Shown here: positions 82-27,105 of the stretch, piece after piece
How the letters are laid out: the number at the start of each line of letters is the position of its first letter
Numbering within the stretch: the stretch's first letter is position 1
Made by a program: the position numbers and the translations under genes
The notes under the pieces: generated by a model
What the model was told of the DNA's origin: nothing
The model's input: only the letters and a program-made list of their open reading frames with translations
The model's database searches: none
Assembly: GCA_902767915.1 (NCBI GenBank)
Contig: CACXJE010000010.1
Location: 1-38,726 of the forward strand
DNA length: 38,726 nucleotides
DNA from: Oscillospiraceae bacterium
Lineage (GTDB): Bacteria > Bacillota > Clostridia > Oscillospirales > Oscillospiraceae
Direction: 5' to 3'

Positions 82-140
82 AAACCGATAACCAGAATGA
101 ATAATTGCGGCGCTTTGCAGATTGCAATCTGCAAAACACA
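82..140. repeat. Hairpin-core repeat (family C), copy 1
   Basis: Positions 114-135 are a perfect 22-bp palindrome whose half is TTTGCAGATTG. It is preceded by an AT-rich GAATGAATAATTGCGG stretch and followed by AAAACACAT. The same arrangement recurs at 4071, 5058, 18265, 19208, 19331, 22442 and 27043. The rest of 1-222 holds only this element, the edge palindrome and the terminator at 178. Confidence 0.8.
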
Positions 141-177
141 TCTCCCCAGGACCGTCATCAAGGGAAACAGCACAGGA

Positions 178-210
178 CAAAGGACCCCACCGTTTCGGTG
201 AGGTCCTTTG
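178..210 (-). terminator. Terminator hairpin of the SLH protein gene
   Basis: A 15-bp stem with a 3-nt loop lies 12 bases beyond the stop codon of the SLH gene. Its single imperfect pair is a G-U wobble in the minus-strand transcript but a C-A mismatch in the plus-strand transcript, so it fits termination of the minus-strand gene. The U-rich part (CCTTTG) is short. Confidence 0.7.
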
Positions 211-222
211 CTGTATTCTTGT

Positions 223-3200
223 TCAGTTGGCGAAGGCTTTGTACAGGAACGTCACGATCTGCCCCCGGGTGCAGGTCTTGCCTACGCCGAAGGTGGTTTT
301 TGTCGTGCCGCCGGTGACGCCGTTCTCCACGGCCCAAAGCACGGCCGTATAATAGTACTTGCCTTCCTTGACGTCGGTGAAGGGATTCAGGGTACTGGAC
401 AGGATCCCGGGAGAGCCCATGGCCTTCCACAGGAAGGTCATAGCCTGCTCCCGCTTGCAGGGCTGGCCCACGCCGAAGGCGGTTTTTGTCACGCCGCCGG
501 TGATTCCGTTTTCCACGGCCCAGAGCACCGCCTTGTAGTAATACTTGTTGGACTTCACGTCGGTGAAGGGATTCTCGTTTGACTTGGGCTCCGGCGCGCC
601 CTTTGCCTTCCACAGGAAGGTGACGATCTGCTCCCGGGTACAGGTCTTGTTGGGGGAGAAATGGGTGTCGTCCGTGCCGCCGGTGACTTGGGGATCGTGG
701 TAATAGGCCCAGAGCACGGGCTCATAGTAATACTTGCCCTCAACGACGTCCACGAAGGGGTTCACCGGCGACTTGCGCTCGATGTAGATGTAGCCGCCGA
801 AGTCAGACCAGGCGCTTTCATAGGTGGTCTTGAAGTAGATCGTCACGTTCCCGCTGTGGGCTGCGTCCACGGTGTATTCGCTGCCGTCGCCTTCGGGGGG
901 ATAAACCGCATCAATGGCGCCGTCGGTCACGTGGACCACCAGGATCTGGTCGCCCTGGGTCAGCTCGGTGTTCAGCACGTACGTGCCGGGAATGTCGGGA
1001 TTTTCCGCAAAACGGTTGGCGTCGTTGAAGTCGTCCGAGTTCCAGTCCGGCCCGATGAGATAGTAGCCGTCCTGGATCATACCCGGATGGATCACCACGC
1101 GGCTGGCCGGGGTGCCGTCGGGTTCCCTGACGGTGCCGCCGGAGACGTAACCTCCGACAGGCTCCACGATATGGCAGTTGAACAGCTGCATATTGCTGAA
1201 GCCGGAGATCGCGGCGGTGTCCGCCGGGCAGGTCACCTCCACGGACGAGTTGTAGATCCGCAGCGTTTCGCCGGTGCCGCTGCCGACGATCCCCAGCCCG
1301 GTATTCCCTGTGGTGGCGATTTCCGTGTCCCAAACGGTCAGCTTTGCCCCGTTTTCAACCTTGACGGCGGCAATCGCGCGTTCTGTGGTAAACGTGTAAT
1401 AGCTGCTCTTTTCGCCGGTGATTTTCGTATCCGCGGAAACACGGATTCCGGCTTCGGGTGGGTAGATCCAATACAGATGTTCAAAGGGCGTCAGGGTCGC
1501 CGGGTTTTCAAAGCGGATTTCCAGGCCGCTCACGCCAACGTTGCGGATGATGTCGTAAGCGTTATAAGCCGGATATTCAAGGTCCACCATTTCCCCTCTC
1601 CCGGTATAGCTGCCCCGGACGGACAGGACGCCGCTGCCGTCGTAGGAGAACTTCCCGTTTTGGAGCACGTCGGACTGATTCCCGGAATCGACCTGGACGC
1701 CGTCGATAAACAGAGGAATGGGCGGCGCGACGTATTCCATCCAGAAATACCCGCCGAAGTCAGACCAGGCGCTGTCATACTCGGGTTTGAAATAGATCGT
1801 TTTTTGCCCTGCGTGACCGGCGTCCACGGTGTACTCGGTGCCGTAGCCGTCGGGGTACCAGGCGTCAATGACGCCGTCGGTCAGGTGGACCACCTTGATC
1901 GGATCGCCCTCGGCCAGGGTGGTATTCAGCATATACTCGCCGTCATGGAAGGGATTCTCGGCAAAGCGGTGATTCACGCTGACGTCGGCCACGGTCCAAT
2001 CCGGCCCGATCAGGTAGTAGCCGCCGGAGACGCAGGGCTTGACCCACACGTTGGTTGCGATGTTGTTCTCGGCGTCGCCGAAATAGTAGGCCCCGCTGTT
2101 ATTGACGATCTGACCGCCCGCGGGCTCCACGATCTCGCAGCCGGTGAGGCTGATGCCGCTGCGAAAGAGGTTGACGGCATAGTTGACGGCATCCTGGATG
2201 TGCAGGGTGCTGTTCTCCACGGAGAGGGCGCTGTAGCCCAGGGTTCTGCCCTCAATGCCGGTGGTGGCGTTCACGATCGTCAGGGAGCCGTCCGTGATCC
2301 GCAGGGTGTTTCCGTCGGCGCTGCTGCCGGAGCCGGCCAGCTTGACGCCCACGGCGTACTGGCCCTCCACGTGGGTCCGGCAGTACAGGGTCAGGGCATA
2401 GGGCCCCCGGATGGTGAGGTCCCCGGCGCAGCTGAGCAGGGTCTGGCCGGTAATCGTGGGGGCTGCAGCGCCCTCCAGAGCCAGGTTCTTCAACGGGACG
2501 ACGGTCAGAGGATTCCCGAAGGTACCGCTTTCGACCAGATATCTGACCGTATCGTCGGTACTGGAATAACTATCGGAAATCGTCAGGACCCGGGTGTCGG
2601 TGTTCAGGGCGAAGACGCCGTTGCCCAGGACGTCGGCCTTGTTGGCGTCGGTGACGGGGACGTCCTCGATCCAGAAGGAATAGGGAGAGTTGGCGCGAAG
2701 CTTGAGCTCCTCCAGGGGGGTCGTGCCGGAGTAGCAGGCCGTGCCCGTGCTCACGTCGACGGAGGAGCCGGGGAGGGTAAAGGTCGAATCGGTGCGGGTG
2801 ACACCGTCGGCCGCGAAGTTGCAGATGGCCTTGCCGCCCTCCATGGTTTTGGCGTAGAAGGTGGAATGGCGGAAGGCCAGGCTGCCGCCGTTGCCCTGGA
2901 GGCCGCGCTTCATGCCGGTGCAGAAGACCCGGGCCTCGTCCAGAGTCAGATCGCCCCCATACATATAGATGGCAGCGCCAACGTCCCCGGTGCCGGGGCC
3001 TTTCAGTTTCAGCTTGCCGGGGCCGGTGATGGTCAGGTCGCCCTCGGAGCAGATAAAGGTATAGGAATCGTCGTCGTTGGTGATCTCCAGCGTCGTGTCC
3101 TGGGCGACGCAGACCGTCAGTCCGTCGATCTGATTGTCGATGAGGTTCACGTTTGCCACGGCGTAGGAGGTGCTTCTGCCGTTCAGGGTCAGGGTGGCCG

Positions 3201-3666: not shown

Positions 3667-3785
3667 GTTCTTTTCCTCCTTTTGGTTGGATTTGATTCTG
3701 AGGTCAGTTCAGGGGACGAATGCTTCGGGTGAAAACGCGCAAAACGGCGCGGCGAGATCCCTTCAGGACCGCGCTGCGCCGCATA

Positions 3786-3892
3786 GGAGCTGCTTTTGCA
3801 CGTGACAAGAGAACCGGAGGGGGGTTCCCCGCCGGCTGGGCCGAGCGATCGGCTTTCCGTCCGTCCCGTCACGGCTGCCAACTCCTTTCATC
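3786..3892 (-). promoter_or_regulatory. Structured 5' leader of the SLH gene, class unknown
   Basis: The promoter at 3908-3936 implies an untranslated leader of about 235 nt. On the minus strand, CGTGAC (3873-3868) pairs with GTCACG (3806-3801), GGAG near 3885 can pair with CTCC near 3786, and between them lie a GCCGA/TCGGC hairpin and a CCGG...CCGG helix around GGGGAACC. This looks like a folded multi-helix RNA. I could not match it to a known riboswitch. The remaining bases of 3667-4020 show no gene. Confidence 0.4.
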
Positions 3893-3907
3893 AATATCCA
3901 TGAATAA

Positions 3908-3936: not shown

Positions 3937-4027
3937 GGTTTTATGTGGAATAAATGACGTATTTGTGCGTCGATGATCCCCTTTCAACTTCCCGTCGGTG
4001 GGTGCGCCGCCGGCGGTGGAGGGGTGC

Positions 4028-4138
4028 TATGAAAGTGAATAGTGAATAATGAATGGTGAATAATTGTGGAGTTTTGCAAATTGCCATTTGCAAAACACAA
4101 TAAATTCTCAATTTTCAACTCTCAATTCTCAATTCTCT
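4028..4138. repeat. Hairpin-core repeat (family C), copy 2, with heptamer arrays on both sides
   Basis: The core is GTTTTGCAAAT / TGCC / ATTTGCAAAAC at 4071-4096, an 11-bp perfect stem. To its left is a 7-bp tandem array of GTGAATA-type units (about 4034-4062). To its right is an array of AATTCTC-type units (4104-4138). The right array runs into the 3' end of the regulator gene and supplies its TGA stop. Confidence 0.85.
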
Positions 4139-4923: not shown

Positions 4924-5088
4924 GCAACAGGCCCGCCCGTAGGGGCGGCCATTGGCCGCCCGCCCGAGGCACCTGCTTGTAGCGCCGGCTATACCCGTGA
5001 AGGGCACAATGTTAGCCGGCCTCGATGAATTGAGAATTGACAATTGAGAATTTGCGGTGCTTTCAAATTGCCATTTGAAAGCATTGGA
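4921..5088. repeat. Composite repeat element (copy 1) inside the feo operon
   Basis: In order it holds a TAGGCAACAGG heptamer unit, the GTAGGGGCGGCC palindrome (4939-4960), an 8-bp-arm hairpin GCCGGCTA...TAGCCGGC (about 4983-5018), a GAATTGA heptamer array (about 5031-5053) and the hairpin core TGCTTTCAAAT / TGCC / ATTTGAAAGCA (5058-5083). The same order of parts is found at 22281-22475, with a different heptamer number. It separates the two feoA genes. Confidence 0.88.
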
Positions 5089-12367: not shown

Positions 12368-15112
12368 ATGGAACAATACAACGTCACCGGCATGAGCTGC
12401 GCGGCCTGCTCTGCCCGGGTGGAAAAGGCGGTCCGGGCTGTGCCCGGGGTCACGGACTGCGCCGTGAGCCTGCTCACCAATTCCATGGGAGTGGAGGGCG
12501 CCGCGGCCCCTGCCGCCGTCATTGCCGCGGTCACCGCTGCCGGCTACGGAGCCGAGCTGAAATCGGCATCCGGCAAAGCCCCTGCCGCTTCCGCCCCCGG
12601 GGCCGACGCCCTGGCGGACCGGGAATCGCCCAAGCTGCTGCGGCGGCTGCTGTGGTCCCTGGGCTTTCTGCTGGTTCTGATGTACGTGTCCATGGGCCAC
12701 ATGATGTGGGGCTTCCCCCTGCCCAAATGGTTCGAGGGCAACCACGTGGCCATGGGCCTGACCCAGCTGCTGCTGGCGGCCATCGTGATGGTGATCAACC
12801 AGCGGTTCTTCATCTCCGGCACCAAGGCCCTGCTGCACCGGGCGCCCAATATGGACACCCTGGTGAGCCTGGGCTCCGCCGCCTCCTTCGGCTGGTCGGT
12901 CTATGTGCTCTTTGCCATGACCCGGGCCCAGACCGACGGCAACACCGCCGCTGTGGAGCGGTATATGCATGAATTCTACTTTGAGTCCGCGGCCATGATC
13001 CTGACGCTGATCACCGTGGGCAAGCTGCTGGAGGCCAAGTCCAAGGGCAGGACCACCGACGCTCTGAAGGGTCTGATGCGTCTGGCCCCCAAGACCGCCG
13101 TTCTGATCCGGGATGGGCAGGAGGTCACGGTGCCCATCGAGCAGGTCCAGAAGGACGACGTATTCGTGGTCCGGCCCGGAGAATCCATCCCGGTGGACGG
13201 GGTGGTGCTGGAGGGCAGCTCCGCCGTGAACGAATCCGCGCTGACCGGCGAATCCATCCCGGTGGACAAGGTCCCCGGGGATCTGCTCTCCGCCGCCACG
13301 GTGAACCAGTCCGGCTTTCTGAAGGCCCGGGCCACCCGGGTGGGGGAGGACACCACCCTCAGCAAAATCATCAAAATGGTCTCCGATGCGGCGGCCACCA
13401 AGGCCCCCATCGCCAAGACCGCCGACCGGGTCTCCGGCATTTTCGTCCCCACAGTCATCGGCATCGCCATCCTCACCACGGTGATCTGGCTGCTGGTGGG
13501 CCAGAGCTTTGCCTACGCCCTGGCCCGGGGGATCTCCGTACTGGTGATCTCCTGCCCCTGCGCCCTGGGCCTGGCCACCCCCGTGGCCATCATGGTGGGC
13601 AGCGGCGTGGGCGCCCGGAACGGGATCCTGTTCAAAACCGCCGTGTCTCTGGAGCAGACCGGGAAGGTGAAGGTGGTGGCCCTGGATAAGACCGGCACCA
13701 TCACCAGCGGCGAGCCCCGGGTCACGGATATCCTGCCCGCCCCCGGCGTCACCGAGCCGGAGCTGCTGACCGCGGCCCTGGCCCTGGAGCAGAAGAGCGA
13801 GCACCCCCTGGCCAAGGCCATTGTCGGCTTTGCCGTAGGGGCGGCCACTGGCCGCCCGCCCGAGGCAGACGCAGGCGGGCAACAGGCAACCGGGAACAAA
13901 GCCTTCCCCCTGGGGGCAGAGCTGTCCGGTGGACAGCGAGATTATATGGCCATTTCCGCAGCTATGCTGCGAAAATGGTATCCTACACTTAGTAGGTGTC
14001 ACGGCCCTGAGTCCGTGACGGATGAGGGACGTTCCGAACCCGCTCTGTGTCCGTTGCCCATCCCCGACGTTACCGACTTCCGGGCCCTGCCCGGCAACGG
14101 CCTGGAGGCCCTGCTGGAGGGGCAGCGCCTGCTGGGCGGCAGCGTGAAATATCTCTCCGAACGGACCGCTGTTCCCGAGATTATGCGCGCCAAGGCCGAG
14201 GCCCTGGCCGCCGAGGGCAAGACCCCGCTGCTCTTTGCCCATGGAGATAAGCTGCTGGGCCTCATCGCCGTGGCGGACGTGATCAAGCCCGAAAGTCCCC
14301 AGGCGGTGCAAGAGCTGCAGAACATGGGGATTGACGTAGTTATGTTAACCGGTGACAACCAGCGCACCGCGGAGGCCATCGGCAGGCAGGCAGGGGTGAA
14401 CCGGGTGATCGCAGGGGTCCTGCCGGAGGGCAAGGAGGACGTGATCCGCCAGCTCCAGCAGACCGGCAAGGTGCTGATGGTGGGCGACGGCATCAACGAC
14501 GCCCCGGCCCTGACCCGGGCGGATATGGGCATGGCCATCGGTGCGGGCACCGACGTGGCCATCGACGCGGCGGACGTGGTGCTGATGAAGAGCCGCCTCA
14601 CCGACGTGAGCGGGGCCATCCGGCTGAGCAAGGCCACCCTTCGCAACATCCACGAGAACCTGTTCTGGGCCTTCTTCTACAATGTGATCGGCATCCCTCT
14701 GGCGGCCGGCGCCTTTGTGAAGCTCTTCGGCTGGACCATGAACCCCATGTTCGGGGCTGCGGCCATGAGCCTGTCCAGCTTCTGCGTGGTGACCAACGCC
14801 CTGCGGCTGAATCTGTTCAAATTAGGCAACAGGCAACAGGCAATAGGCAATAGGAGACGGGGATCCGGGGCGGCAGCGGCGCACATCAGTGCGCCACGGG
14901 ACAGCGAAACGGTGATCGCGGTGAAAGGCATGATGTGCCACAACTGCGAGCGGCACGTGCGGGAGGCTCTGGAGGCTCTGCCCGGCGTGGAGGCCGCCTC
15001 CGCGGATTATCAGACCGGCCTCGTGACCCTCACCGGGGACGCGGCGGACGCCGACCTCCGGGAAGCCGTCCGGAGCGCAGGCTACAAGCTGAAAAAGATC
15101 CGGCGAAAATAA
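12368..15112 (+). CDS. copA: Copper-exporting P1B-type ATPase with in-frame repeat insertions
   Basis: This 914-residue membrane pump exports Cu(I). It carries an N-terminal HMA domain with GMSCAAC (Cys 11 and 14), TGES (about 297), the ion-binding CPC in SCPCALG (about 395), phosphorylation site DKTGT (about 439), SEHPLA in the nucleotide domain (about 477-482), GDGIND (about 705) and an additional C-terminal HMA domain with MMCHNC (about 856-861). Two stretches do not belong to the family: about 490-566 between [12 protein letters not shown] and [11 protein letters not shown], and about 818-846 between the last membrane helix and the C-terminal HMA domain. Both correspond at DNA level to intergenic repeat families (13835-14062 and 14822-14905), and the frame stays open. 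Without them the length is close to a normal CopA plus one HMA domain. Whether the pump stays active is unknown. Confidence 0.93.
13835..14062. repeat. Repeat cluster inserted in frame in the nucleotide-binding domain of copA
   Basis: It starts with the GTAGGGGCGGCCACTGGCCG palindrome (family A), continues with GGGCAACAGGCAAC heptamer-like units, then a family D element from about 13901 to 14030 (CCTTCCCCCTGGGGG, GCTGTCCGGTGGACAGC, GTCACGG...CCGTGACGGATGAGGG). All of it is translated. The right boundary is approximate. Confidence 0.85.
14822..14905. repeat. Heptamer array and REP inserted in frame before the copA C-terminal HMA domain
   Basis: Units TAGGCAA, CAGGCAA, CAGGCAA, TAGGCAA and TAGGAGA run from 14823 and are followed by a GCGCAC-ATCA-GTGCGC palindrome (about 14880-14895) related to GGCGCACAGTGTGCGCC at 25723. 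The array reads [14 protein letters not shown] in the copA frame; C-for-T changes in the second and third units keep stops out. Confidence 0.88.
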
Positions 15113-15963: not shown

Positions 15964-17270
15964 GAATCCTGTATCTGGACTGCGGCATGGGCGCCGCGGG
16001 GGATATGCTGACGGCAGCTCTGCTGGAGCTGCTGCCGGATCCGGCGGCCTTTGTGGAACGGCTCAACGGCCTGGGGATCCCCGGGGTCCGCTATCAGGCC
16101 GAGCCCGCCGTGAAGTGCGGGATCACCGGCACCCATATAACCGTCACCGTTGACGGGAAAGAAGAGGGCGCCCCCCACGAGCACCATCACGACCATGATC
16201 ACGACCATTATCACGATCATGAGCATACCCACGAACATACCCACGAACACACCCACACCGGCCTTGCCCGCATTCGGCATCTGGTCCGGGACCATCTGCC
16301 CCTGCCGGACCAGGTCCGGGCGGACGTGCTGGGAGTCTATGACCTGCTGGCCCAGGCGGAAAGCCGGGTCCACGGGGTCCCCATGGAGGAGATCCACTTT
16401 CATGAGGTGGGCACCATGGACGCCCTGGCGGACATCACCGCGGTCTGCCTGCTGATCCGGGAGCTTGCCCCGGACCGGATCCTGGCCTCTCCCGTCCACG
16501 TGGGCAGCGGCACGGTCCGCTGCGCCCACGGGATCCTGCCGGTGCCGGCCCCTGCCACGGCGCTGCTGCTGCAGGACGTTCCCATCTACGGCGGGGAGCT
16601 GCAGGGGGAGCTCTGCACCCCCACGGGCGCGGCTTTGCTGCGGCGGTTTGTCACGGGCTTTGGCCCCATGCCGCCCCTGCGGCCCAAGGCCATCGGCTAC
16701 GGCATGGGCCGGAAGGACTTTCCCCGGGCCAACTGCCTCCGGGCCATCCTGGGGGACGCCGAGGAGACCGGCAATGAGGCGCTGGAGCTCCGCTGCAACC
16801 TGGACGACCAGACCCCGGAGGAAATCGGCTTTGCGATGGAGCGGCTGCTGGAGGCCGGGGCCCTGGACGTCTGGACCCAGCCCATCGGCATGAAGAAGTC
16901 CCGGCCCGGTGCCATGCTCTGCGTGCTGTGCCGGCCGGAGGACAGGGCCCGGATGCTGGAGCTGCTCTTTTCCCACACCACCACCCTGGGGGTCCGGGAA
17001 TACCCGGTCAGGCGGTCTGTGCTGACCCGGGAAACCGAAACTCTGGATACCCCCTGGGGCCCGGTCCGCCGGAAGCGCTCCGCGGGCTTCGGCGTGAAAA
17101 AAGAGAAATACGAATACGAGGATCTGGCCCGGATCGCCCGGGAAACCGGCAGGAGCCTGACCGAAGTCAGAGACGCTCTCGAAGCCCAATGCAGGGACAA
17201 GCCTTGCTTGTCCGCTGATTCCCCCGCCCCTTCGGACAAGCAGGGCCTGTCCCTGCAGATAGAACCATGA
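15960..17270 (+). CDS. larC: LarC, nickel insertion protein (nickel-pincer cyclometallase)
   Basis: This 436-residue CTP-dependent enzyme inserts nickel into the pincer nucleotide. It starts MRILYLDCGMGAAGDM, the LarC signature, has a His/Asp-rich metal-storage stretch at about 72-99, then FHEVGTMDALADI and ELxCNLDDQTPEEIG. In Lactobacillus plantarum the protein is split as larC1/larC2 by a programmed frameshift; here it is one continuous frame. The last about 26 residues (after RDALEAQ) are encoded by a large inverted repeat at 17190-17257 and do not look like family sequence. The start overlaps the larB stop and the stop overlaps the larE start, both as ATGA. Confidence 0.92.
   Translation: MRILYLDCGMGAAGDMLTAALLELLPDPAAFVERLNGLGIPGVRYQAEPAVKCGITGTHITVTVDGKEEGAPHEHHHDHDHDHYHDHEHTHEHTHEHTHTGLARIRHLVRDHLPLPDQVRADVLGVYDLLAQAESRVHGVPMEEIHFHEVGTMDALADITAVCLLIRELAPDRILASPVHVGSGTVRCAHGILPVPAPATALLLQDVPIYGGELQGELCTPTGAALLRRFVTGFGPMPPLRPKAIGYGMGRKDFPRANCLRAILGDAEETGNEALELRCNLDDQTPEEIGFAMERLLEAGALDVWTQPIGMKKSRPGAMLCVLCRPEDRARMLELLFSHTTTLGVREYPVRRSVLTRETETLDTPWGPVRRKRSAGFGVKKEKYEYEDLARIARETGRSLTEVRDALEAQCRDKPCLSADSPAPSDKQGLSLQIEP
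17190..17257. repeat. Long inverted repeat at the larC 3' end
   Basis: Two 24-bp arms (17190-17213 and 17234-17257) differ at two positions and enclose a 20-nt loop. The left arm is itself a hairpin (GGACAAGC, CTT, GCTTGTCC). It encodes the LarC tail and lies nine bases before the larE start codon, so folding could influence larE translation. Confidence 0.88.
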
Positions 17271-18112
17271 GCGGCGGGACAAGGAGCGCCGGATATGACC
17301 GGCTGCTTGGGCTGCTGTGGTCCATGGGCTCCGTGGCGGTGGCCTTCTCCGCCGGGGTGGATTCCACCCTGCTGCTGCGGGCGGCCCGGGAGGCTCTGGG
17401 GGACCGGGTGATTGCGATCACGGTCCGGTCCCGCTTCGTGCCCCGGCGGGAGCTGGAGGCCTCCGAGGCCCTGTGCCGGACCATCGGCGTCCCGCAGCTG
17501 ATCCTGGAGGTGGATCCCTTCACGGTGGCGGGGGTCCGGGAGAACCCGGCCGACCGCTGCTATCTCTGCAAACGGGAGCTGTTTACCCGGATCCGGGCGG
17601 CAGCCGAGGCCCGGGGCTTTGCCCAGGTGGCGGAGGGCTCCAACGCCGACGATCTGGGGGACTACCGGCCCGGTATGCGGGCCATCCGGGAGCTGGGGAT
17701 CCGCAGCCCCCTGCTGGAGCTGGGGCTCACCAAGGCGGAGATCCGGGCCATGTCCCGGGAACTGGGGCTGCCCACCTGGGATAAGCCTGCCATGGCCTGC
17801 CTGGCCACCCGGATCCCCACAGGCACGCCCCTGACGGAGGAGAGCCTCCGACGGGCGGAAAAGGCAGAGGAACGGCTGTCTGATCTGGGCTTCGGCAAGC
17901 TGCGGGTCCGGGTCCACGGGGACCTGGCCCGGATCGAGCTGGATCCGGCGGAGCTGCCCCGGCTGCTGGACGAGCAGACGCGGCAAACCGTCCACCGGGA
18001 TCTGCTGGCCCTGGGCTTCCGCTGGGTCTCTCTGGACCTGGGCGGCTACCGGATGGGCAGTATGAATCGGATATCAGGCAATAGGCACCAGGCAATAGGC
18101 ACCAGGCAATAG
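17267..18112 (+). CDS. larE: LarE, ATP-dependent sacrificial sulfur transferase
   Basis: This 281-residue PP-loop enzyme adds sulfur to the pincer nucleotide. The ATP loop is FSAGVDST (27-34), where SGGVDST is usual. EGSNADDLGDYRPG and KPAMACLATRIP follow; Cys 178 lies where the sacrificial Cys 176 of L. plantarum LarE sits, so this looks like the one-cysteine type that loses its own sulfur each turn. A second pair, CYLC (98-101), is also present. The ATG overlaps the larC stop and has no separate ribosome site, so translation is probably coupled. The final about 16 residues (NRISGNRHQAIGTRQ) are encoded by an AGGCAAT/AGGCACC heptamer array, and its TAG provides the stop. Confidence 0.93.
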   Translation: MSGGTRSAGYDRLLGLLWSMGSVAVAFSAGVDSTLLLRAAREALGDRVIAITVRSRFVPRRELEASEALCRTIGVPQLILEVDPFTVAGVRENPADRCYLCKRELFTRIRAAAEARGFAQVAEGSNADDLGDYRPGMRAIRELGIRSPLLELGLTKAEIRAMSRELGLPTWDKPAMACLATRIPTGTPLTEESLRRAEKAEERLSDLGFGKLRVRVHGDLARIELDPAELPRLLDEQTRQTVHRDLLALGFRWVSLDLGGYRMGSMNRISGNRHQAIGTRQ

Positions 18113-18130
18113 GCAATAGGCAACAGGGGA
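18073..18130. repeat. AGGCAAY heptamer array at the larE 3' end
   Basis: About seven 7-bp units (CAGGCAA, TAGGCAC, CAGGCAA and so on). The first five are translated as the LarE tail; the TAG at 18110-18112 ends the gene inside the array. Confidence 0.9.
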
Positions 18131-18330
18131 CGGGGGAACGGATTGCCACGGCCAGTCTGCGGACTGGCCTCGCAATGACAAAAACGAAACCGTTTCCGCC
18201 GTAGGGGCGGCCATTGGCCGCCCGCCCGAGGCACCTGCCTGCAGCGAAGCATTAATAGTTTGGCGTTTTGCAGATTGCAATCCGCGAAACACGTCAAACT
18301 CTCAATTCTCAATTCTCAATTCTCAATTGA
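18131..18330. repeat. Stacked repeats of families E, A and C between larE and deoC
   Basis: Family E (GGATTGCCACGG, CCAGTC/GACTGG hairpin, CTCGCAATGACA) lies at about 18136-18181 and is related to 22478-22516. Family A (GTAGGGGCGGCCATTGGCCG) lies at 18201-18245. Hairpin core copy 4 lies at 18265-18290. An AATTCTC heptamer array lies at 18298-18330. No gene is seen in 18113-18446. Confidence 0.85.
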
Positions 18331-18362
18331 CTCCTCCCGGGATCTTTTTTTTCGAAAACCCA

Positions 18363-18446: not shown

Positions 18447-19121
18447 ATGAGTAACCTGAAATTCACCCCTGCCGAAATGGCAAAGTTTATTGACCACACC
18501 CTGCTGAAGCCCCAGGCCAGCCTGGAGGACATCCGCAAGGTCTGCGACGAGGCCAAGGCCTACAACACCGCCTCCGTCTGCGTCAATCCCAGCTATATCA
18601 AATTCGTCGCCCAGCAGCTGGAGGGCACCGACGTGACCCCCTGCTGCGTGATCGGCTTCCCCTTGGGCGCCACCACCCCCAACGTCAAGGCCTTTGAGGC
18701 CGCCGAGGCTGTCTCCAACGGCGCCGGCGAGGTGGACATGGTCATCAACGTGGGCGCCGTCAAGTCCGGCGACTGGGCCCTGGTGGAGCGGGACATTGCC
18801 GCCGTCGTCACCGCCGTGGACGGCGAGGCCAAGGTGAAGGTCATCATCGAGACCTGCCTGCTCACCGACGAGGAAAAGGTTCTGGCCTGCCAGGCTGCCA
18901 AGCGGGTCGGCGCGGACTTTGTCAAGACCTCCACCGGCTTCTCCACCGGCGGCGCCACCGTGGAGGACGTCCGTCTGATGCGGCAGACCGTGGGTCCCGA
19001 GATGGGCGTGAAGGCCTCCGGCGGCGTGCGTACCTATGCCGACGCCGTGGCAATGATCGAGGCCGGCGCCAGCCGTCTGGGCGCCTCCTCCGGCAAGGCC
19101 ATTATCGAAGGCTGCAAATAA
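18447..19121 (+). CDS. deoC: Deoxyribose-phosphate aldolase
   Basis: This 224-residue cytosolic TIM-barrel class I aldolase splits 2-deoxyribose 5-phosphate into glyceraldehyde 3-phosphate and acetaldehyde in deoxynucleoside breakdown. The Schiff-base lysine is K160 in DFVKTSTGF, with [10 protein letters not shown] holding the catalytic Asp (about 97) and the second lysine in VKASGG (about 187). The length is standard. GAAAGGAAGG precedes ATG 18447. Its product feeds triosephosphate isomerase, encoded next, although 325 bp of repeats and a separate promoter lie between the genes. Confidence 0.96.
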
Positions 19122-19260
19122 CACCGGCTCCGCAGGACGGCCGGCCCCTGGCCGCCGCGGCATGACGAAAAGTTGAAAGTTGAAAATTGAAAGTTGAAAG
19201 TTGTGGTATCGTTCAAATTGCCATTTGAACGATGAAAAACAAAACAGAACGTATCGAATT
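19122..19260. repeat. REP, AAAGTTG heptamer array and hairpin core copy 5
   Basis: A GGCCGGCCCCTGGCCG palindrome (about 19138-19156) is followed by 7-bp AAAGTTG units (19171-19203) and the core ATCGTTCAAAT / TGCC / ATTTGAACGAT (19208-19233, 11-bp perfect stem). Between here and 19320 the DNA is unique and carries the tpiA promoter. Confidence 0.87.
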
Positions 19261-19297
19261 GATTCTCGATTCACTGAACAACGACTGACTTGATACC

Positions 19298-19326
19298 ATG
19301 ACAGACTTTCGCTTTCGGATTATATT
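19298..19326 (+). promoter_or_regulatory. Probable promoter of tpiA
   Basis: ATGACA (19298-19303, five of six), 17-bp spacer, TATATT (19321-19326). The transcript would begin near hairpin core copy 6 at 19331, placing that hairpin at the 5' end of the leader. Confidence 0.55.
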
Positions 19327-19330
19327 TTCA

Positions 19331-19395
19331 GTTTTTCAAATGGTAATTTGAAAAACACATCCATTTTCAACTTTCAACTTTCAACTTTCAATTCA
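19331..19395. repeat. Hairpin core copy 6 with TTTCAAC heptamer array
   Basis: GTTTTTCAAAT / GGTA / ATTTGAAAAAC (19331-19356) is an 11-bp perfect stem. The loop GGTA is close to the complement of TGCC, so this copy is probably inverted relative to the others. A TTTCAAC array follows (19364-19393). Confidence 0.85.
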
Positions 19396-19445
19396 TCCCG
19401 CACCCCGAAAAAATAAAATGATACTATATGACAGGAGGAAACACT

Positions 19446-20189
19446 ATGAGAACCCCCATGATTGCCGGCAACTGGAAAATGAACAAGACCCCCGCTGAGA
19501 CCAAGGCTCTGATCGAGGATCTGAAGCAGGTGGAAAACCGCAGCGGCGCGGAAGTCGTCGTCTGCCCCATGACCGTCTGCCTTTCCGCCGCGGCGGAAGC
19601 CCTCAAGGGCAGCGCCATCAAGCTGGGCGCCCAGAACGTCCACTTTGCTGAAAACGGCGCCTACACCGGCGAATGCAACGCCGCGTCTCTGAAGGAGCTG
19701 GGCGTGGAATACGTGATCATCGGCCACTCCGAGCGCCGTCAGTATTTCGGCGAAACCGACGAGACCGTCAACCAGCGGACCCTGAAGGCCCTGGAAGCCG
19801 GCCTGAAGCCCATCGTCTGCGTGGGCGAGAGCCTGACCCAGAAGCAGCAGGGCATCACCAACGAGGTGGTCTGCCTGCAGACCAAGGTGGCCCTTCTGAA
19901 CGTGGGCGAGAAGATCGACGACGTGGTCATCGCCTATGAGCCCGTTTGGGCCATCGGCACCGGCCTGACCGCCACCCCCGAGGAGGCCAACGCCACCATC
20001 GCCGCCATCCGCGGCGCCATCCGGGAAGTCTTCGGCGAGGCTGCCGACCGGGTCCGGATCCTCTACGGCGGCTCCATGAACGGCAAGAACGCCCACGATC
20101 TGATGGCTCAGCCCGAAATCGACGGCGGCCTGATCGGCGGCGCCTCCCTGGCAGCCGAAAAGTTCTCCGGCGTCATCAACTTCAACTGA
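19446..20189 (+). CDS. tpiA: Triosephosphate isomerase
   Basis: This 247-residue cytosolic TIM-barrel enzyme interconverts dihydroxyacetone phosphate and glyceraldehyde 3-phosphate. Catalytic residues are visible: K11 in GNWKMNKT, H94 in IIGHSERR and E165 in AYEPVWAIGTG; YGGSM is the phosphate-binding end. An in-frame ATG at 19428 precedes the ribosome site, so ATG 19446, eight bases after AGGAGGA, is the start. It stands apart from the usual gapA-pgk-gpmI cluster. Confidence 0.97.
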   Translation: MRTPMIAGNWKMNKTPAETKALIEDLKQVENRSGAEVVVCPMTVCLSAAAEALKGSAIKLGAQNVHFAENGAYTGECNAASLKELGVEYVIIGHSERRQYFGETDETVNQRTLKALEAGLKPIVCVGESLTQKQQGITNEVVCLQTKVALLNVGEKIDDVVIAYEPVWAIGTGLTATPEEANATIAAIRGAIREVFGEAADRVRILYGGSMNGKNAHDLMAQPEIDGGLIGGASLAAEKFSGVINFN

Positions 20190-22196: not shown

Positions 22197-22280
22197 AACA
22201 GGCGCCAGTAGGGGCCGATGCCTACATCGGCCCATGGGAACAGCCAATCCGTAGGGGCCGATGCCCACATCGGCCCGAGG
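22197..22280. repeat. Two tandem GTAGGGGCCGATG palindromes
   Basis: Near-identical GTAGGGGCCGATGCC-ACATCGGCCC units at about 22210 and 22251 follow the stop codon of the BMP-domain gene. Similar units lie at 5149. Confidence 0.85.
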
Positions 22281-22475
22281 GAACAGGGAACAGGCCCGCC
22301 CGTAGGGGCGGCCATTGGCCGCCCGCCCGAGGCACCCGCCTGCAGCTCCGGCTATACCCGTGCAGGGCACAATGTCAGCCGGCCAAGATGAATTGAGAAT
22401 TGAGAATTAAGAATTGAGAATTAAGAATTGAGAATTTAAGGTGATTTCAAATTGCCATTTGAAATCATTGAAAAA
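22281..22475. repeat. Composite repeat element (copy 2)
   Basis: Same order as 4921-5088: GGGAACAGG units, GTAGGGGCGGCC palindrome (22302-22323), CCGGCT...AGCCGG hairpin (about 22348-22382), a seven-unit GAATTGA/GAATTAA array (22391-22439) and core TGATTTCAAAT / TGCC / ATTTGAAATCA (22442-22467). The array is longer than in copy 1. Confidence 0.9.
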
Positions 22476-22520
22476 GGGGAACGGATTGCCACGGGCCTTT
22501 GGCCCTCGCAATGACAGAAT
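22476..22520. repeat. Repeat family E copy
   Basis: GGATTGCCACGG, a GGGCC-TTT-GGCCC hairpin, then CTCGCAATGACAG; related to 18136-18181, where the hairpin arms are different but still paired. The rest of 22197-22582 holds no gene. Confidence 0.8.
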
Positions 22521-22582
22521 CGAGATGTTTCCCGCCCACCCGCACCACCATGGAACCATACACAGAAAGAAGGGACACCCAC

Positions 22583-23173
22583 ATGAAGCTGCTGCTGCTC
22601 TCCGACCAGGAGGAGCCCTATCTCTGGGACTTCTACAAGCCCGGAATGCTGGCGGACTACGACCTGATCCTGGCGGCAGGGGACCTGAAGGCGGTGTATC
22701 TGGAATTTCTGGTGACCATGGCCCGCTGCCCCCTGCTCTACGTCCGGGGCAACCACGATCAGCTCTATGACACCCAGCCCCCCGAGGGCTGCGACCAGGT
22801 GGACGATCAGCTGGTGACGATCAACGGCCTGCGGATCCTGGGCCTGGGGGGCTGTATGCGCTACAGCGGCTCTGCCTGGCAGTTTACCGAGGAAGAGATG
22901 GCCCGCCGGATCCGAAAGCTGCGGCGGAAGCTGAAAAAAGCCGGCGGGGTGGACATCGTCCTGACCCACGCCCCACCCCTGGGCTGCGGCGACGGGGAGG
23001 ATCTGTGCCACCGGGGCTTTGCCTGCTTCCGGGAGCTGATCGAGGAATATCAGCCCCGCTACTTCATCCACGGCCATCAGCATCTGAACTATAAAACCGG
23101 TTCTCAGCGGGTCCGGATGCTGGGCAGCACCACCGTCATCAACGCCTGCGGCCGGTATGAGCTGCATTTCTGA
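22583..23173 (+). CDS. Calcineurin-like metallophosphoesterase
   Basis: This 196-residue cytosolic protein has most of the binuclear metal motifs of the superfamily: GDLKA, GNHDQ, LTHAPPLG and HGHQH. The first motif, normally DxH, reads SDQEE, so the His ligand is replaced. The conserved spacing and the GLGGCMRYS and FTEEEMARRI segments suggest a clostridial subfamily with this variant rather than decay. AAAGAAGGGAC precedes ATG 22583. It stands alone between repeats and the arcA promoter. Substrate is unknown; relatives act on phosphodiesters or nucleotides. Confidence 0.85.
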   Translation: MKLLLLSDQEEPYLWDFYKPGMLADYDLILAAGDLKAVYLEFLVTMARCPLLYVRGNHDQLYDTQPPEGCDQVDDQLVTINGLRILGLGGCMRYSGSAWQFTEEEMARRIRKLRRKLKKAGGVDIVLTHAPPLGCGDGEDLCHRGFACFRELIEEYQPRYFIHGHQHLNYKTGSQRVRMLGSTTVINACGRYELHF

Positions 23174-23263: not shown

Positions 23264-23308
23264 GTATCTATGAAAATACGGCCTCTTTCGGCAAAGGAGC
23301 ACAGTTTT

Positions 23309-24526
23309 ATGCCTATCTATGTAAAAAGTGAGATCGCCCCGCTGAAACGTGTGATGCTGCATCGGCCCGGTAAGGAGCTGGAGCATCTGACGCCCGGTAC
23401 GCTGGACCGGCTGCTGTTCGACGACATTCCCTATCTGGAGGTTGCCCAGCAGGAGCATGACCGGTTTGCCCAGGTGCTGCGGGAGGCGGGCTCCGAGGTG
23501 GTTTACCTGGAGGACCTGGCCGCCGAGACCCTCAAGGCCAATCCCGGCCTGCGGGAGGAGTTTTTGAAGGAGTTCGTCACCTTCTCTCCCAATGTGGACT
23601 ACCGGGGCGAGCTCTATGAGTATCTGCTCTCCATCCCCGACGACAAGGAGCTGATCCTCAAGACGATGGCCGGCGTCTCCTTCCGGGAGCTGGGCGCTTC
23701 CCCGAAGTTCACCCTGCCCGCCATGCTGAACCGGCAGAACAATTTCGTCCTGGAGCCCATGCCCAACCTCTACTTCACCCGGGACCCCTTTGAGTCCATC
23801 GGTGAGGGCGCGGCCATCAACCGGATGTACTCCGTGACCCGCTGCCAGGAGACGATCTTTGCCCGTTACATCTTCAAGTATCACCCCGAATTCGGCGGCA
23901 AGGTCCACCTTTACGCCAACGGCACCGAGCACTACTCCCTGGAGGGCGGCGACGTGCTGAACCTCTCCGACGAGGTTGTGGCCATCGGCATCTCCCAGCG
24001 GACCACCCCCGAAGCCATTGAAAACATCGCCAAGAAGCTCTTTGCCGACGAAGAAGCCACGGTCCGCACGGTCCTGGCCCTGGAGATTCCCTGTATGCGT
24101 GCCACCATGCACCTGGACACCGTCCTGACCCAGGTGGATCACGACAAGTTCGTGGTCTTCCCCGACATGCTGGACTCTCTGCGGATCTTCGAGATCAAGC
24201 CCGGCGCCAAGGGCAGCCTGCTGATCCGGGATATGGGCGGCAACCTGCGGGACGCCCTGCAGTACCACCTGCACCAGGACAATATCCAGCTGATCCTCTG
24301 CGGCGGCGGCGACAACGTGGTTGCCCAGCGGGAGCAGTGGAACGACGGCTCCAACACCCTTTGCGTGGCCCCCGGCAAGGTGGTGGCCTACAACCGCAAC
24401 GTGGTCACCAACCGGATCTTCGAGGAGAACGGCATCACCGTTCTGAAGATCCCCTCCGGCGAGCTGAGCCGTGGCCGCGGCGGCCCCCGCTGCATGTCCA
24501 TGCCCCTCAACCGTGCCAAGCTGTAA
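23309..24526 (+). CDS. arcA: Arginine deiminase
   Basis: This 405-residue cytosolic enzyme hydrolyses arginine to citrulline and ammonia, the first step of the ADI pathway for ATP and acid resistance. NLYFTRDPF, ATMHLDTVLTQVDHD and the catalytic Cys 395 in GGPRCMSMPL match the family. The length is normal. AAAGGAG nine bases before ATG 23309 sets the start; upstream in-frame ATGs at 23225 and 23270 precede or coincide with the start point of the promoter and lack a ribosome site. arcB follows after 103 bp with its own promoter-like site. arcC and arcD are not in the window. Confidence 0.97.
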   Translation: MPIYVKSEIAPLKRVMLHRPGKELEHLTPGTLDRLLFDDIPYLEVAQQEHDRFAQVLREAGSEVVYLEDLAAETLKANPGLREEFLKEFVTFSPNVDYRGELYEYLLSIPDDKELILKTMAGVSFRELGASPKFTLPAMLNRQNNFVLEPMPNLYFTRDPFESIGEGAAINRMYSVTRCQETIFARYIFKYHPEFGGKVHLYANGTEHYSLEGGDVLNLSDEVVAIGISQRTTPEAIENIAKKLFADEEATVRTVLALEIPCMRATMHLDTVLTQVDHDKFVVFPDMLDSLRIFEIKPGAKGSLLIRDMGGNLRDALQYHLHQDNIQLILCGGGDNVVAQREQWNDGSNTLCVAPGKVVAYNRNVVTNRIFEENGITVLKIPSGELSRGRGGPRCMSMPLNRAKL

Positions 24527-24564
24527 CGGCCTGCCTGGTTCGTCACGGCGTCAAATCGTAACTG

Positions 24565-24597
24565 TCAATTGTCATTTTTCTTGACAATTGATAAAAT
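24565..24597 (+). promoter_or_regulatory. Promoter and inverted repeat before arcB
   Basis: TTGTCA (24569-24574), 17-bp spacer and TAAAAT (24592-24597) suggest a separate promoter. TCAATTGTCA (24565-24574) and TGACAATTGA (24582-24591) form a 10-bp inverted repeat across it. The arms resemble the AATTGTC heptamers at 27076-27100, so they may descend from a repeat. Confidence 0.6.
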
Positions 24598-24629
24598 AAC
24601 CAACTGAAATCAAAAAGGAGAACGAAACC

Positions 24630-25622
24630 ATGCCTGTCAATCTCAGAGGACGCAACTTCCTGAAGCTGCTCGACTACACCCCCGAAGAAATCCGCTATCT
24701 GCTGGACCTGGCTCACGAGTTCAAGCGTATGAAGATGGCCGGTGTTCCCCACCGCTATCTCGCCGGCAAGAACATCGTCCTGCTGTTCGAAAAGACTTCC
24801 ACCCGTACCCGCTGCTCCTTTGAGGTAGCCGGCATGGATCTCGGCTGCGGCGTGACCTACCTGGATCCCGGCAGCTCCCAGATGGGCAAGAAGGAATCCA
24901 TCGCCGATACCGCCCGCGTCCTGGGCCGCATCTATGACGGCATCGAGTACCGCGGCTTCGATCAGAGCATCGTGGAAGACATTGCCAAGTACGCCGGCGT
25001 GCCCGTGTGGAACGGCCTGACCAACCAGTTCCATCCCACTCAGATGCTGGCCGACGTCATGACCATCGAAGAGCACTTCGGCTACCTGAAGGGCATCAAC
25101 TTCACCTTCGTGGGCGACGCCCGCAACAACGTTGCCAACTCTCTGATGGTTGTCTCCGCCAAGATGGGCATCAACTTCACCGCCTGCGGCCCCAAGGAGC
25201 TGTGGCCCGAGGAGAGCCTGGTGGAGGAGTGCAAGAAGATCGCCGCCGAGCACGGCTGCACCATCCGCATGACCGATGACGTGAAGGAAGGCACCACCGG
25301 CGCCGACGTCATCTACACCGACATTTGGCTGTCCATGGGCGAGCCCGACGAGATCTGGGCCAAGCGCATTGCCCTGCTGAAGGACTACCAGGTCAACAAG
25401 GAACTGATGGCCAACGCCAAGCCCGAAGCCATCTTCCTGCACTGCCTGCCCTCCTTCCACGACACCAAGACCACCATCGGCGCCGACATTGCCAAGAAGT
25501 TCGGCGTCAACGAGATGGAAGTCTCCGACGAGGTCTTCGAGTCCAAGCAGTCCAAGGTTTTCGACGAGGCCGAGAACCGGATGCACACCATCAAGGCTGT
25601 CATCTACGCCACCCTCTGCTGA
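24630..25622 (+). CDS. arcB: Ornithine carbamoyltransferase, catabolic type
   Basis: This 330-residue cytosolic enzyme converts citrulline and phosphate to ornithine and carbamoyl phosphate when it works after ArcA. The carbamoyl phosphate site is [13 protein letters not shown] (about 54-66), then [10 protein letters not shown] and HCLPSFHD, whose Cys binds ornithine. The [14 protein letters not shown] region and length fit the ArcB branch. AAAAGGAGAACG precedes ATG 24630. Lying just after arcA it is best read as catabolic, although argF-type biosynthetic use cannot be excluded. Carbamate kinase must be elsewhere. A strong terminator follows. Confidence 0.95.
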
Positions 25623-25650
25623 TTGTAGAATTGCGCTGCAATTGCACAAG

Positions 25651-25684
25651 AAAAGAGCACCGGAGCAATCCGGTGCTCTTTTCG
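25651..25684 (+). terminator. Terminator of arcB
   Basis: AAAAGAGCACCGG (25651-25663), loop AGCAAT, CCGGTGCTCTTTT (25670-25682). The 13-bp perfect stem with A-tract and T-tract is a good intrinsic terminator and could work in both directions. Confidence 0.92.
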
Positions 25685-25717
25685 TATCCAGGGAACAGGG
25701 ACTGAGGAAAACGTTGT

Positions 25718-25838
25718 GTAGCGGCGCACAGTGTGCGCCACGGTTTCTGTGCTGTAGCGCGGGCAATTTGCCCGCTGGTTCAGGCAACAGGGTCGCCGTA
25801 GGGGCCGGCGTCCTCGACGGCCCGCAGATCGAGGCCTA
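25718..25838. repeat. REP cluster between convergent genes
   Basis: Three palindromes: GGCGCACAGTGTGCGCC (25723-25739), GCGGGCAATTTGCCCGC (25759-25775, family B, same as those flanking the transposase) and GTAGGGGCCGGCGTCCTCGA with its partner (25797-25838). A GGCAACAGGG unit lies at 25783. The last palindrome abuts and supplies the stop codon of the peptidase E gene. Confidence 0.85.
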
Positions 25839-26543
25839 CGCCTCGTTTTTGCTGATCTGCACGATCTCCCCGTCCGCGATCCGATAGGCCTCGCCGCAAA
25901 CGGTTTCGTTCCCGGCGGCGTCCTTGAAGATATAGCTGCCGTCGTTCAGCGCCAGCAGCGGCCAGCGGCGGCTGCCTTCCAGCAGCAGCGCCTCCACGGT
26001 GCCGCCGTTGGGCGTCGGCTGGCTGCGGAGGTACTGGAAATGCGGAATGAGATGGTGTTCCGTCAAGCCCAGCCCCTGCAGTACGGGCCATTGGTCAGGG
26101 TCCATCGGGTCCTCGGGTGCTTCCGGCGGCACCAGAACCGTATCGGCGGAGTTCATGGAGCCGGCACTGATTCCCACCAGCACCCCGTTCCAGCCCTGCA
26201 GCAGCCCTTTCAGACCAATCCGTTCAAAGAACCGGCTCTGTACAGGGATCTCGCCGCCGGAGAGAATGATCAGATTCGCCCCGGCCACAAGCCGGGCCGC
26301 GTCTTTGGCGTTCAGATCGTCCAGGATGGTATATGCCTCCACGGGAAATCCGGCGTTCACAAAGGCGTCCCGGACTTCCAGGGCAAAGGGAACCGTGGTT
26401 TCGCGGGTCGCCGGATCGTTAGCCACCCAGAGGCCCCGGACCGGCCCGGGCAGGGCAGCCTTCAGCCGATCCACAAAGTGATTTTCGGTGTAGAGCGCCG
26501 GGGTCTGATAGGGCCCCGTGGCACTGGTCAGAAAACAGATCAT
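25836..26543 (-). CDS. Peptidase E (S51)-like hydrolase
   Basis: This 235-residue protein belongs to the class I glutamine-amidotransferase-like fold shared by dipeptidase E and cyanophycinase. The nucleophile is the Ser in GISAGSMN (about 133), preceded by LIILSGGEIPVQ. A His in GLTEHHLIPHF is a candidate triad partner. ATG 26543 has GAGGAG six bases upstream; the longer frame from 26579 begins before that site. Family members cut Asp-X dipeptides or cyanophycin-like peptides; the substrate here is unknown. The stop TAG is the first triplet of a REP palindrome. Confidence 0.82.
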   Translation of the reverse strand: MICFLTSATGPYQTPALYTENHFVDRLKAALPGPVRGLWVANDPATRETTVPFALEVRDAFVNAGFPVEAYTILDDLNAKDAARLVAGANLIILSGGEIPVQSRFFERIGLKGLLQGWNGVLVGISAGSMNSADTVLVPPEAPEDPMDPDQWPVLQGLGLTEHHLIPHFQYLRSQPTPNGGTVEALLLEGSRRWPLLALNDGSYIFKDAAGNETVCGEAYRIADGEIVQISKNEA

Positions 26544-26718
26544 GTTACTCCTCCTATGCAGATTCCAGGGGGGCATCAAACATCCCGGGGTTCGTACAAA
26601 CCTCCCCTAACGCTCGTTAACAGGGAACAGGCTTGGATCTGCCGCAAGGATAATCTGCCCCCACAGGGTTGATCCTTCCTTTTTCCGGCCTTGAAAGGTG
26701 TCTTCACGCGTCCCGGTG

Positions 26719-27015
26719 TCAACCGAAAAAGAGCGCTGCCTTGGAGGAGACCGGTGCTTCCGGAGGTCCCGGGTGATAGAAGAAGATCAGGGAAATTAAT
26801 AGCCCGGTCAATACGATGCCCGCAATCACTGTCAGAACGATCGCAAAGGATCGGGCGACGACATACTTGTGCTGACGTTCCCTGCGGGACTCCTCGCTTC
26901 CGGCAAATCGGGCATGTTTCCGATCATGCAGGCAAATGATCCACGCTGCTATGGCCAGGAAGAACAGGAAATTCGGCAAACCAATCAAGAAGAAATAAAA
27001 GGCATCTATACGCAT
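26719..27015 (-). CDS. Small two-helix membrane protein, unknown
   Basis: A 98-residue protein with two hydrophobic helices (about 5-26, FYFFLIGLPNFLFFLAIAAW, and about 58-82) separated by a basic, polar stretch (HDRKHARFAGSEESRRERQH) that should face the cytosol. I did not recognise a family. Starts at 27015 or 27027 are possible; AGGA lies eleven bases before 27015. Hydrophobic pattern and codon use support a real gene, but no neighbour gives a role. Confidence 0.6.
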   Translation of the reverse strand: MRIDAFYFFLIGLPNFLFFLAIAAWIICLHDRKHARFAGSEESRRERQHKYVVARSFAIVLTVIAGIVLTGLLISLIFFYHPGPPEAPVSSKAALFFG

Positions 27016-27038
27016 TTGCGAACACATCCTGTTCTGTG

Positions 27039-27105
27039 TTTGGCAGATTGCAATCTGCAAAACACAATCAATTCTCAATTCTCAATTGTCAATTGTCAAT
27101 TGTCC
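27039..27105. repeat. Hairpin core copy (8th) and AATTGTC/AATTCTC heptamer array
   Basis: The core is GCAGATTGCAATCTGC (27043-27058) with nearly paired flanks. A 7-bp array follows (27069-27105; AATTCTC, then AATTGTC units). The array enters the 3' end of aspS and provides its TGA stop. Confidence 0.88.

Follow-up and report, generated by a model that had tools for sequence, protein, structure and literature searches.

Hairpin repeats of an Oscillospiraceae genome are probably the ends of small, mobile DNA repeats with larger relatives bearing IVP genes

Hairpins and heptamer arrays in the window

The stretch analysed here, referred to as the window, is the 38,726-nucleotide sequence of positions 1 to 38,726 of contig CACXJE010000010.1 (assembly GCA_902767915.1) from an Oscillospiraceae bacterium. 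Eight copies of a short hairpin, with cores starting at 118, 4077, 5064, 18271, 19214, 19337, 22448 and 27044, are all present in it as claimed by a first-pass annotation of the sequence. These hairpins are probably the ends of small, mobile DNA repeats, larger relatives of which bear a gene for a 23S rRNA intervening-sequence protein (IVP; PF05635). When at most one mismatch is tolerated, the core gives 15 strand-matches in the window, compared with 0.06 expected from 100 shuffles (largest number, 2). The copies are located between genes or at gene ends, and these genes are protein genes throughout. Neither rRNA, in an Rfam search of the window, nor tRNA, in a tRNA search of the window, is found, and none of the window units contains a PF05635 open reading frame (ORF).

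The stem of each copy was tested at five inner and six outer pairs. The first-pass annotation had stated that the other arm changes to match in every case. Five of the eight stems are indeed fully Watson-Crick paired, but those placed at 114, 18265 and 27043 are imperfect. The hairpin at 18265-18290 (− strand) has one wobble pair and one mismatch, as had been correctly noted: a T-G wobble in the outer arm and an A-C mismatch in the inner stem. The C-A mismatch in the outer arm of the hairpin at 112-137 (+ strand, CAGATTGCAATCTG core; 114 in the annotation) and the G-A mismatch of the hairpin at 27038-27063 (− strand; 27043 in the annotation) had been missed. Also left out were the 7-bp tandem arrays that flank the hairpins and the fact that the copies at 19208 and 19331 form the opposite ends of a single inverted-repeat unit.

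This two-hairpin unit spans 19168-19394 (no strand assigned) and is arranged as array, hairpin, 97-nt interior, inverted hairpin and inverted array. Its left array consists of five copies of AAAGTTG (19168-19204, + strand) and is followed by a hairpin of the ATCGTT end type (19208-19233, + strand). Its second hairpin (19331-19356, − strand) is of the T-rich end type and is followed by about four copies of TTTCAAC (19360-19394, − strand). All pairs are formed in both hairpins. The hairpin at 4071-4096 (core CAAATTGCCATTTG, all pairs formed) scores similarly on either strand, so that no strand is assigned to it. It lies between a period-7 array of the GTGAATA type on its left (4032-4055, + strand; a second repeat scan gives period 14 at 4036-4064) and five copies of AATTCTC on its right (4103-4137, − strand). 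A period-7 array of GAATTGA is located at the left of the hairpin at 5058-5083 (array at 5026-5052, both on the + strand), which has all pairs formed with arms TGCTTT/AAAGCA. Another GAATTGA array of 6.7 copies (22388-22438, + strand) is located at the left of the hairpin at 22442-22467 (+ strand, all pairs formed), within a 387-bp composite stretch at 22197-22583. The 18265 hairpin is adjoined by a period-7 array of TCTCAAT (18296-18331, − strand). An array of 5.3 copies of TCAATTG (27066-27106, − strand) extends into a gene for a class II tRNA synthetase (27096-28853, − strand) at its 3' end. Similarity to congeners at the end of this gene breaks off at about 27105-27117, so that the array may provide the last codons and the stop codon of the gene.

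Other repeats are present in the window. Repeats of the CCGTAGGGGCGGCC-N-TTGGCCGCCCGCCCGAGGCA type, which resemble repetitive extragenic palindromes (REPs), are found at 4937-4976, 13833-13872, 18199-18238 and 22300-22339, and three of these four copies are close to hairpin units, with which they form mosaics. Period-7 arrays of the AGGCAAT type without a hairpin are found at 18075-18128 and 14821-14855, the former of which overlaps the end of the ORF at 17267-18112.

Pairing of the arms and anatomy of the units

An exact-core search of the own genome, with a pattern that fixes the 14-base core and leaves the outer arms free, gives 67 strand-matches, which represent 47 distinct copies. Because the search pattern fixed the core alone, the outer arms provide an unbiased test of pairing. 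Watson-Crick pairs are formed at −1 to −6 in 46, 46, 46, 46, 42 and 42 of the 47 copies, compared with expected fractions of 0.53, 0.90, 0.82, 0.62, 0.51 and 0.44 when the two sides are taken as independent. Pairing stops at pair −7, which is Watson-Crick in 4 of 47 copies. Position −8, checked for a REP-like GTAG tetranucleotide, is G in all 47 copies when these are oriented with the array on the left, and the neighbouring positions vary. Covariation was judged by pair counts with shuffled and slid controls. In the 47-row alignment, 98.1% of the cells are paired (80.6% in shuffles). Double changes, with both sides altered, are found in 78 cells; shuffles give 20.9, and none of 500 reaches 78. 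Wobble pairs occupy 4 of the 282 outer-arm cells. In a model-fitted alignment from other genomes, which is biased towards the covariance model by construction, 99.2% of the cells are paired and the covariation score is 0.358, compared with 0.115. Its 150 strand-matches (147 distinct rows) are the best-scoring of 165 and come from 78 of 92 loci, some hairpins being entered on both strands. The pair counts, the double changes and the 150-row alignment together indicate that the compensatory change reported in the first-pass annotation is real and strong. Outer arms that mostly fail to pair would have refuted it according to that annotation; each of the six outer pairs is formed in 42 to 46 of the 47 copies.

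The hairpins adjoin 7-bp tandem arrays, and the two-hairpin copies form inverted-repeat units. Searches with a looser core and at least four outer pairs, loci L197-L208 included, give 193 distinct units, of which 166 have one hairpin and 27 have two. One ATCGTT end is paired with one T-rich end in 20 of the 27 two-hairpin units, indicating that the two ends differ. The interiors of these units vary in length and sequence. The left and right arrays of 18 two-hairpin units match at 6.17 positions, which equals the highest value of 1000 shuffles (mean 5.62).

With the covariance model of the hairpin, matches are found in 21 of the 23 genomes of the genus, the own genome included, but in none of 16 genomes from other genera of the order. 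The genomes of the genus give 0 to 136 strand-matches each, numbers that count many palindromes on both strands, with 150 candidates scored per genome. Among the matches listed for the strict pattern (80 of at least 92 stretches), nearly all named records are Oscillospiraceae, Ruminococcaceae or uncultured Clostridia by label, and many of them come from ruminant gut. One match labelled Bacteroidetes (L137) is taken as chance; no array is present in the 300 bases shown beside it.

Association with IVP genes

The intergenic site flanked by the DeoC-family gene and the triosephosphate isomerase gene holds the 19168-19394 unit in the own genome. At 15 congener loci, this site contains a short spacer in ten, another sequence in one, hairpins in three and a gene in one (L220). 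This gene is located between inverted AGGCAAT arrays and belongs to PF05635. This family has 74 matches in 16 of the 23 genomes of the genus, of which 70 loci were retrieved; two of them (L258 and L310) gave no ORF, leaving 68. The hairpin model finds hairpins adjoining 16 of these 68 ORF-bearing loci, on both sides in 11. Of the 31 distinct hairpins at IVP loci, 28 are located no more than 200 nt from the ORF, and by hand tally 27 of these 28 point inward. An independent search for perfect stems of at least 9 bp likewise finds hairpins on both sides in 11 of 70 IVP records. In the own genome, two of four IVP matches are flanked by hairpins (L247, 139.9 bits, and L312, 94.7 bits; the PF05635 cut-off is 33.8). 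The number of hairpins tracks the number of IVP matches over the 23 genomes (Spearman 0.70, p 0.0002, uncorrected for kinship).

The hairpin-flanked genes cluster in the IVP phylogeny. They do not form a single clade: six changes are needed, compared with 14.2 in shuffles, and 13 of the 15 rows, which were labelled by hand after exclusion of L283 as too short, fall in one clade and 2 in another. No convincing IVP remnant is found within the two-hairpin units, and no IVP match is found in phage records. For the two IVPs tested, the relatives with a solved structure are 2rld and 2gsc.

Several IVP genes of one clade are located in strings of small, variable hairpins, which are separated by constant spacers of CATCACT or TGAAG, as seen partly by eye (L255, L265, L266, L268, L277-L279 and L285; and L256, L267, L281, L286 and L288). 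These strings are perhaps further satellite families. In three congeners, IVP elements (L270, L284 and L312) precede what appears to be the same downstream gene, and the heptamers of L270 and L312 differ. A T-box leader, suspected from the sequence before these three, was dropped, as Rfam gives no match at gathering.

Inverted heptamer arrays around IVP genes

The flanks of IVP genes were compared in 117 records, which comprise 70 records of the genus (one ORF, L311, being counted twice), 31 records from elsewhere in the phylum (29 loci from the best-scoring genomes, a subset of all matches) and 16 plasmid loci taken from 30 tblastn records, among which L351/L352 and L345/L357 are orthologous pairs. 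Inverted-repeat flanks are detected by an alignment test in 71 of 117 records (42 of 70, 19 of 31 and 10 of 16, respectively), as compared with 6 of 117 when partners are swapped and 3 of 101 farther out. Period-7 arrays are located within 200 nt of the IVP gene upstream in 34 and downstream in 24 of the 70 genus records, and upstream in 16 and downstream in 13 of the 31 phylum records, as compared with 5 of 124 and 3 of 61 control windows. No other period exceeds six records per side, the highest being period 8, except for period 14, the excess of which is the period-7 signal itself. The median length of 107 arrays is 4.4 repeats, and the mode is 4.

Arrays are present on both sides in 39 of the 117 records (24 genus, 8 phylum and 7 plasmid). 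In these records, the left heptamer and the reverse-complemented right heptamer match on average at 6.31 of 7 positions, compared with 3.90 in 2000 shuffles (highest, 4.59); the match is complete in 21 records, at 6 positions in 13, at 5 in 3 and at 3 in 2. The left heptamers comprise 33 distinct sequences. Thus, the heptamers vary between elements and agree within one.

Some IVP genes are located within other genes or gene clusters. They are found inside 23S rRNA in L330, L336, L341 and L356 (Azospirillum), as confirmed with Rfam. In L339, an IVP gene with inverted heptamer arrays lies inside an RNase P RNA gene; the Rfam match (RF00010) spans 775 nt. In cyanobacterial plasmids, IVP genes are located between cas genes in L343, L347 and L355 (cas6/cas4 twice and the cas10/Cmr3 family); L355 falls under the array threshold.

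Presence and absence at orthologous sites

The insertion of an IVP element is seen in a Trichormus plasmid (L352), which differs from two near-identical empty plasmids (L358 and L359) by 428 bp with GTAAT on both sides. The overlap computed for this site is 8 bases with one mismatch, indicating that the target duplication is exactly 5 bp (GTAAT) or up to 8 bp. In a related copy (L360), the match to the empty site extends over 7. The junctions of L346/L369, with one mismatch, and of L354/L368, through diverged flanks, are read as compatible with a duplication of about 5 bp. After a TraM-domain gene, the junction is occupied by IVP elements in two Nostoc plasmids (L345 and L357) and by an array element without an annotated gene in a third (L367).

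For the hairpin units, 235 units give 152 candidate empty-site pairs. Among seven candidate pairs inspected, the unit is absent in four, the subject itself bears a hairpin in two, and the remaining one (L163/L056) is a meaningless repeat match. Whole units are present or absent between congeners (for example, L157/L164 and L097/L144). The 387-bp composite stretch at 22197-22583 is missing in all 9 congeners with a readable junction among 14 fetched. Thus, the units show the presence and absence at orthologous sites that characterises miniature inverted-repeat transposable elements (MITEs).

Comparison with known systems

The intervening sequences (IVSs) of 23S rRNA that bear an S23/IVP ORF, such as that of Coxiella, resemble the IVP loci closely. 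According to PMC4990558, heptameric repeats are located 5' of the S23 ORF in the Coxiella IVS, the function of S23/IVP ("four helix bundle") proteins is not known, and the origin of their rRNA insertions is debated. A homopentamer of four-helix bundles is reported for the Xanthomonas protein (PMC4990558; title of a reference in PMC10053308), and IVP is reported to resemble Avd (PMC10053308). The IVP elements analysed here share with these IVSs the PF05635 family, inverted repeats around the ORF and the heptamers, which in Coxiella lie 5' of the ORF. Inverted repeats that could fold into a terminal stem are likewise present in the 19168-19394 unit and in 71 of the 117 IVP flank pairs. Unlike the IVSs, the window units lack the ORF and are located between protein genes or at the margins of such genes, not within rRNA. 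The many IVP loci with arrays on both sides, the hairpin family and the ORF-less copies are further differences.

Heptamer arrays have been described in Xanthomonas, Nostoc, Beggiatoaceae and others (PMC4692102, PMC4679880, PMC6749651), with 70 and 75 convergent pairs in Xanthomonas (PMC4692102, PMC4679880) and generally without association with mobile elements (PMC4692102); the accessible parts of these papers make no link to IVP. The arrays of the GGGAATC type of Xanthomonas and Nostoc and those of the TAACTGA type of Beggiatoaceae, cyanobacteria and Bacteroidetes resemble the present ones as 7-bp intergenic arrays. Apart from the Coxiella paper, no title or opening of an abstract was found that joins IVP genes with inverted heptamer arrays, in a search that lay outside most subscription journals.

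MITEs are similar as short, ORF-less inverted-repeat units gained or lost at sites, but they have fixed terminal repeats, whereas the ends of the present units consist of variable tandem heptamers and a hairpin. The Avd proteins of diversity-generating retroelements are also similar, since bAvd and DivGenRetAVD match IVP below the cut-off. These retroelements differ in that the element described here has no reverse transcriptase, and an RVT_1 match is absent from the own genome. A reverse transcriptase as an Avd-style partner is unsupported: RVT_1 matches are found in 13 of 23 genomes of the genus, but none in the own genome or in two others, G003 and G018, which are copy-rich for hairpins (these are incomplete assemblies).

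Proposed elements and alternative explanations

The balance of these results tips towards a reading in which the hairpins serve as inner ends in a family of small mobile elements, and the window copies are non-autonomous, MITE-like, ORF-less relatives of IVP elements or one-hairpin forms. The data establish the anatomy, the presence or absence at orthologous sites, the link to IVP and, for one IVP element, insertion with a short target duplication. The plan of an element is a 7-bp tandem array, a hairpin, an interior, an inverted hairpin and an inverted array, the interior being in some copies a gene for 23S_rRNA_IVP (S23), an Avd-like four-helix-bundle protein. The folded DNA ends may be recognised by the IVP protein, relatives of which form pentamers, together with a nuclease or host machinery, and the ORF-less copies would move by the route of the IVP elements. 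The symmetry of the arms would reflect copying of, or selection on, the palindrome as DNA, not as RNA.

Several observations weigh against this proposal. The hairpin is absent from 52 of the 68 IVP loci of the genus. Six of the 11 two-sided cases represent one orthologous site, as judged from the downstream gene, leaving six independent two-sided sites, and the downstream hairpin is weak in six of the 11 (E 0.23-0.65). One genome (G012) has 52 hairpin matches and no IVP match, in an assembly that is 74% complete. The interiors of the ORF-less two-hairpin units have no homology to IVP loci except for two matches of 16-17 nt, indicating that these units are not plain deletion derivatives of IVP elements. 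The left and right arrays of single-hairpin units match at 5.79 positions, inside the range of shuffles (mean 5.50, maximum 5.89). Among the 39 IVP array pairs, 5 match at 5 or fewer of 7 positions, and the arrays of L347 are in direct, not inverted, order. The junction is unreadable at four of the seven IVP sites compared (L345, L343, L349 and L353), no hairpin element has a readable target duplication, the congeners being too diverged, and no nuclease domain is seen in the IVPs scanned.

The first-pass annotation had offered three readings of the compensatory changes, namely a folded RNA, single-stranded DNA and copying through a hairpin intermediate. The data lean to the latter two. If the units were IVS-like RNA structures, the array stem and the hairpins would fold in transcripts and be cut by RNase III, so that the insertion is neutralised and selection acts on RNA pairing. 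This is compatible with the RNA fold of the two-hairpin unit (−74 kcal/mol, z −7.2), with the folds of six stretches around single hairpin copies (z −1.3 to −4.4), with the IVP genes located within 23S rRNA and RNase P RNA, and with the removal of the Coxiella S23 IVS by RNase III, as stated in the accessible part of PMC4990558. However, the mismatches in the inverted repeats around IVP genes are 101 G-U and 137 A-C on the sense strand of the ORF, two classes that swap if the RNA is antisense. The lack of a G-U excess over A-C fits symmetry at the DNA level better than selection on RNA, and so does the low number of wobbles in the outer arms; covariation that tolerates wobbles is seen neither in the outer arms of the 47 copies nor in the IVP inverted repeats. 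Rfam gives no match at gathering over the window and reaches only E 0.25 and 0.47 for 19100-19450. An RNA-level explanation is thus unlikely, and recognition or copying of the palindrome at the DNA level is preferred, by an argument from counts rather than a demonstration. Alternatively, the palindromic units may be pre-existing targets for IVP insertion, spread or maintained by replication slippage and quasipalindrome correction, and not element ends. The excess of single-hairpin units (166 of 193, against 27) and the interiors unrelated to IVP would be expected from this, but the two complete hairpins of IVP genes in a fixed inward order, the two distinct end types of the two-hairpin units and the gain or loss of whole units at once would not, and the explanation seems rather doubtful.

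REPINs are inverted pairs of short palindromes, which the two-hairpin form resembles. REPs and REPINs with RAYT, a transposase of the Y1 (HUH) type, also share with the present hairpins their dispersal between genes and their compensating arms, but lack the heptamer arrays at the ends, and the link here is to IVP, not to Y1. That the repeats are of this type and mobilised in trans by such a transposase is improbable. The G-rich 5' flank with G at −8 in 47 of 47 copies, the inverted two-hairpin units and the fact that 12 of the 23 genomes of the genus have a Y1 match agree with it. On the other hand, the hairpin copy number is poorly correlated with the number of Y1 matches (rho 0.31, p 0.15, 23 genomes), and genomes with 94, 83, 56 and 52 hairpin matches have no Y1 match (assemblies 74-88% complete). 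At 12 Y1 loci, 5 hairpins are found, one of them within 200 nt of the Y1 match (E 0.005). A Y1/RAYT transposase is therefore unsupported as the mobiliser by copy number and locus distances. It is very improbable that the hairpins are immobile regulatory structures, such as dispersed terminators of the intrinsic or bidirectional type. The location of the window copies at gene ends or between genes would suit such a role, but of the 17 genera sampled one has the hairpins, its genomes giving between 0 and 136 matches each, and heptamer arrays, an IVP link and presence or absence at single sites are not features of terminators.

Meaning of the IVP elements

The proposal of mobile elements ending in hairpins extends beyond this genus. 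The results suggest that the poorly understood IVP family, known elsewhere from inserts in the ribosomal RNA of bacteria, is part of a widespread type of transposing element. In its full form, for which the case stands evenly balanced, the IVP/S23 genes of several phyla would be a class of mobile DNA elements with self-complementary ends of 7-bp arrays, each element having its own heptamer matched between its sides, with a short target duplication and with ORF-less satellites, including the hairpin family of the window. The rule that IVP genes often lie between inverted heptamer arrays, together with the hairpin satellites and the target duplication, makes this hypothesis of mobility directly testable. 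If it is true, many unexplained heptamer repeats of bacteria would be remains of IVP elements, and repeats that have been reported separately would be offered a common origin. Heptamers that are matched and yet ever-changing would be unusual ends for an element, and they raise the question of what holds two separate arrays in step.

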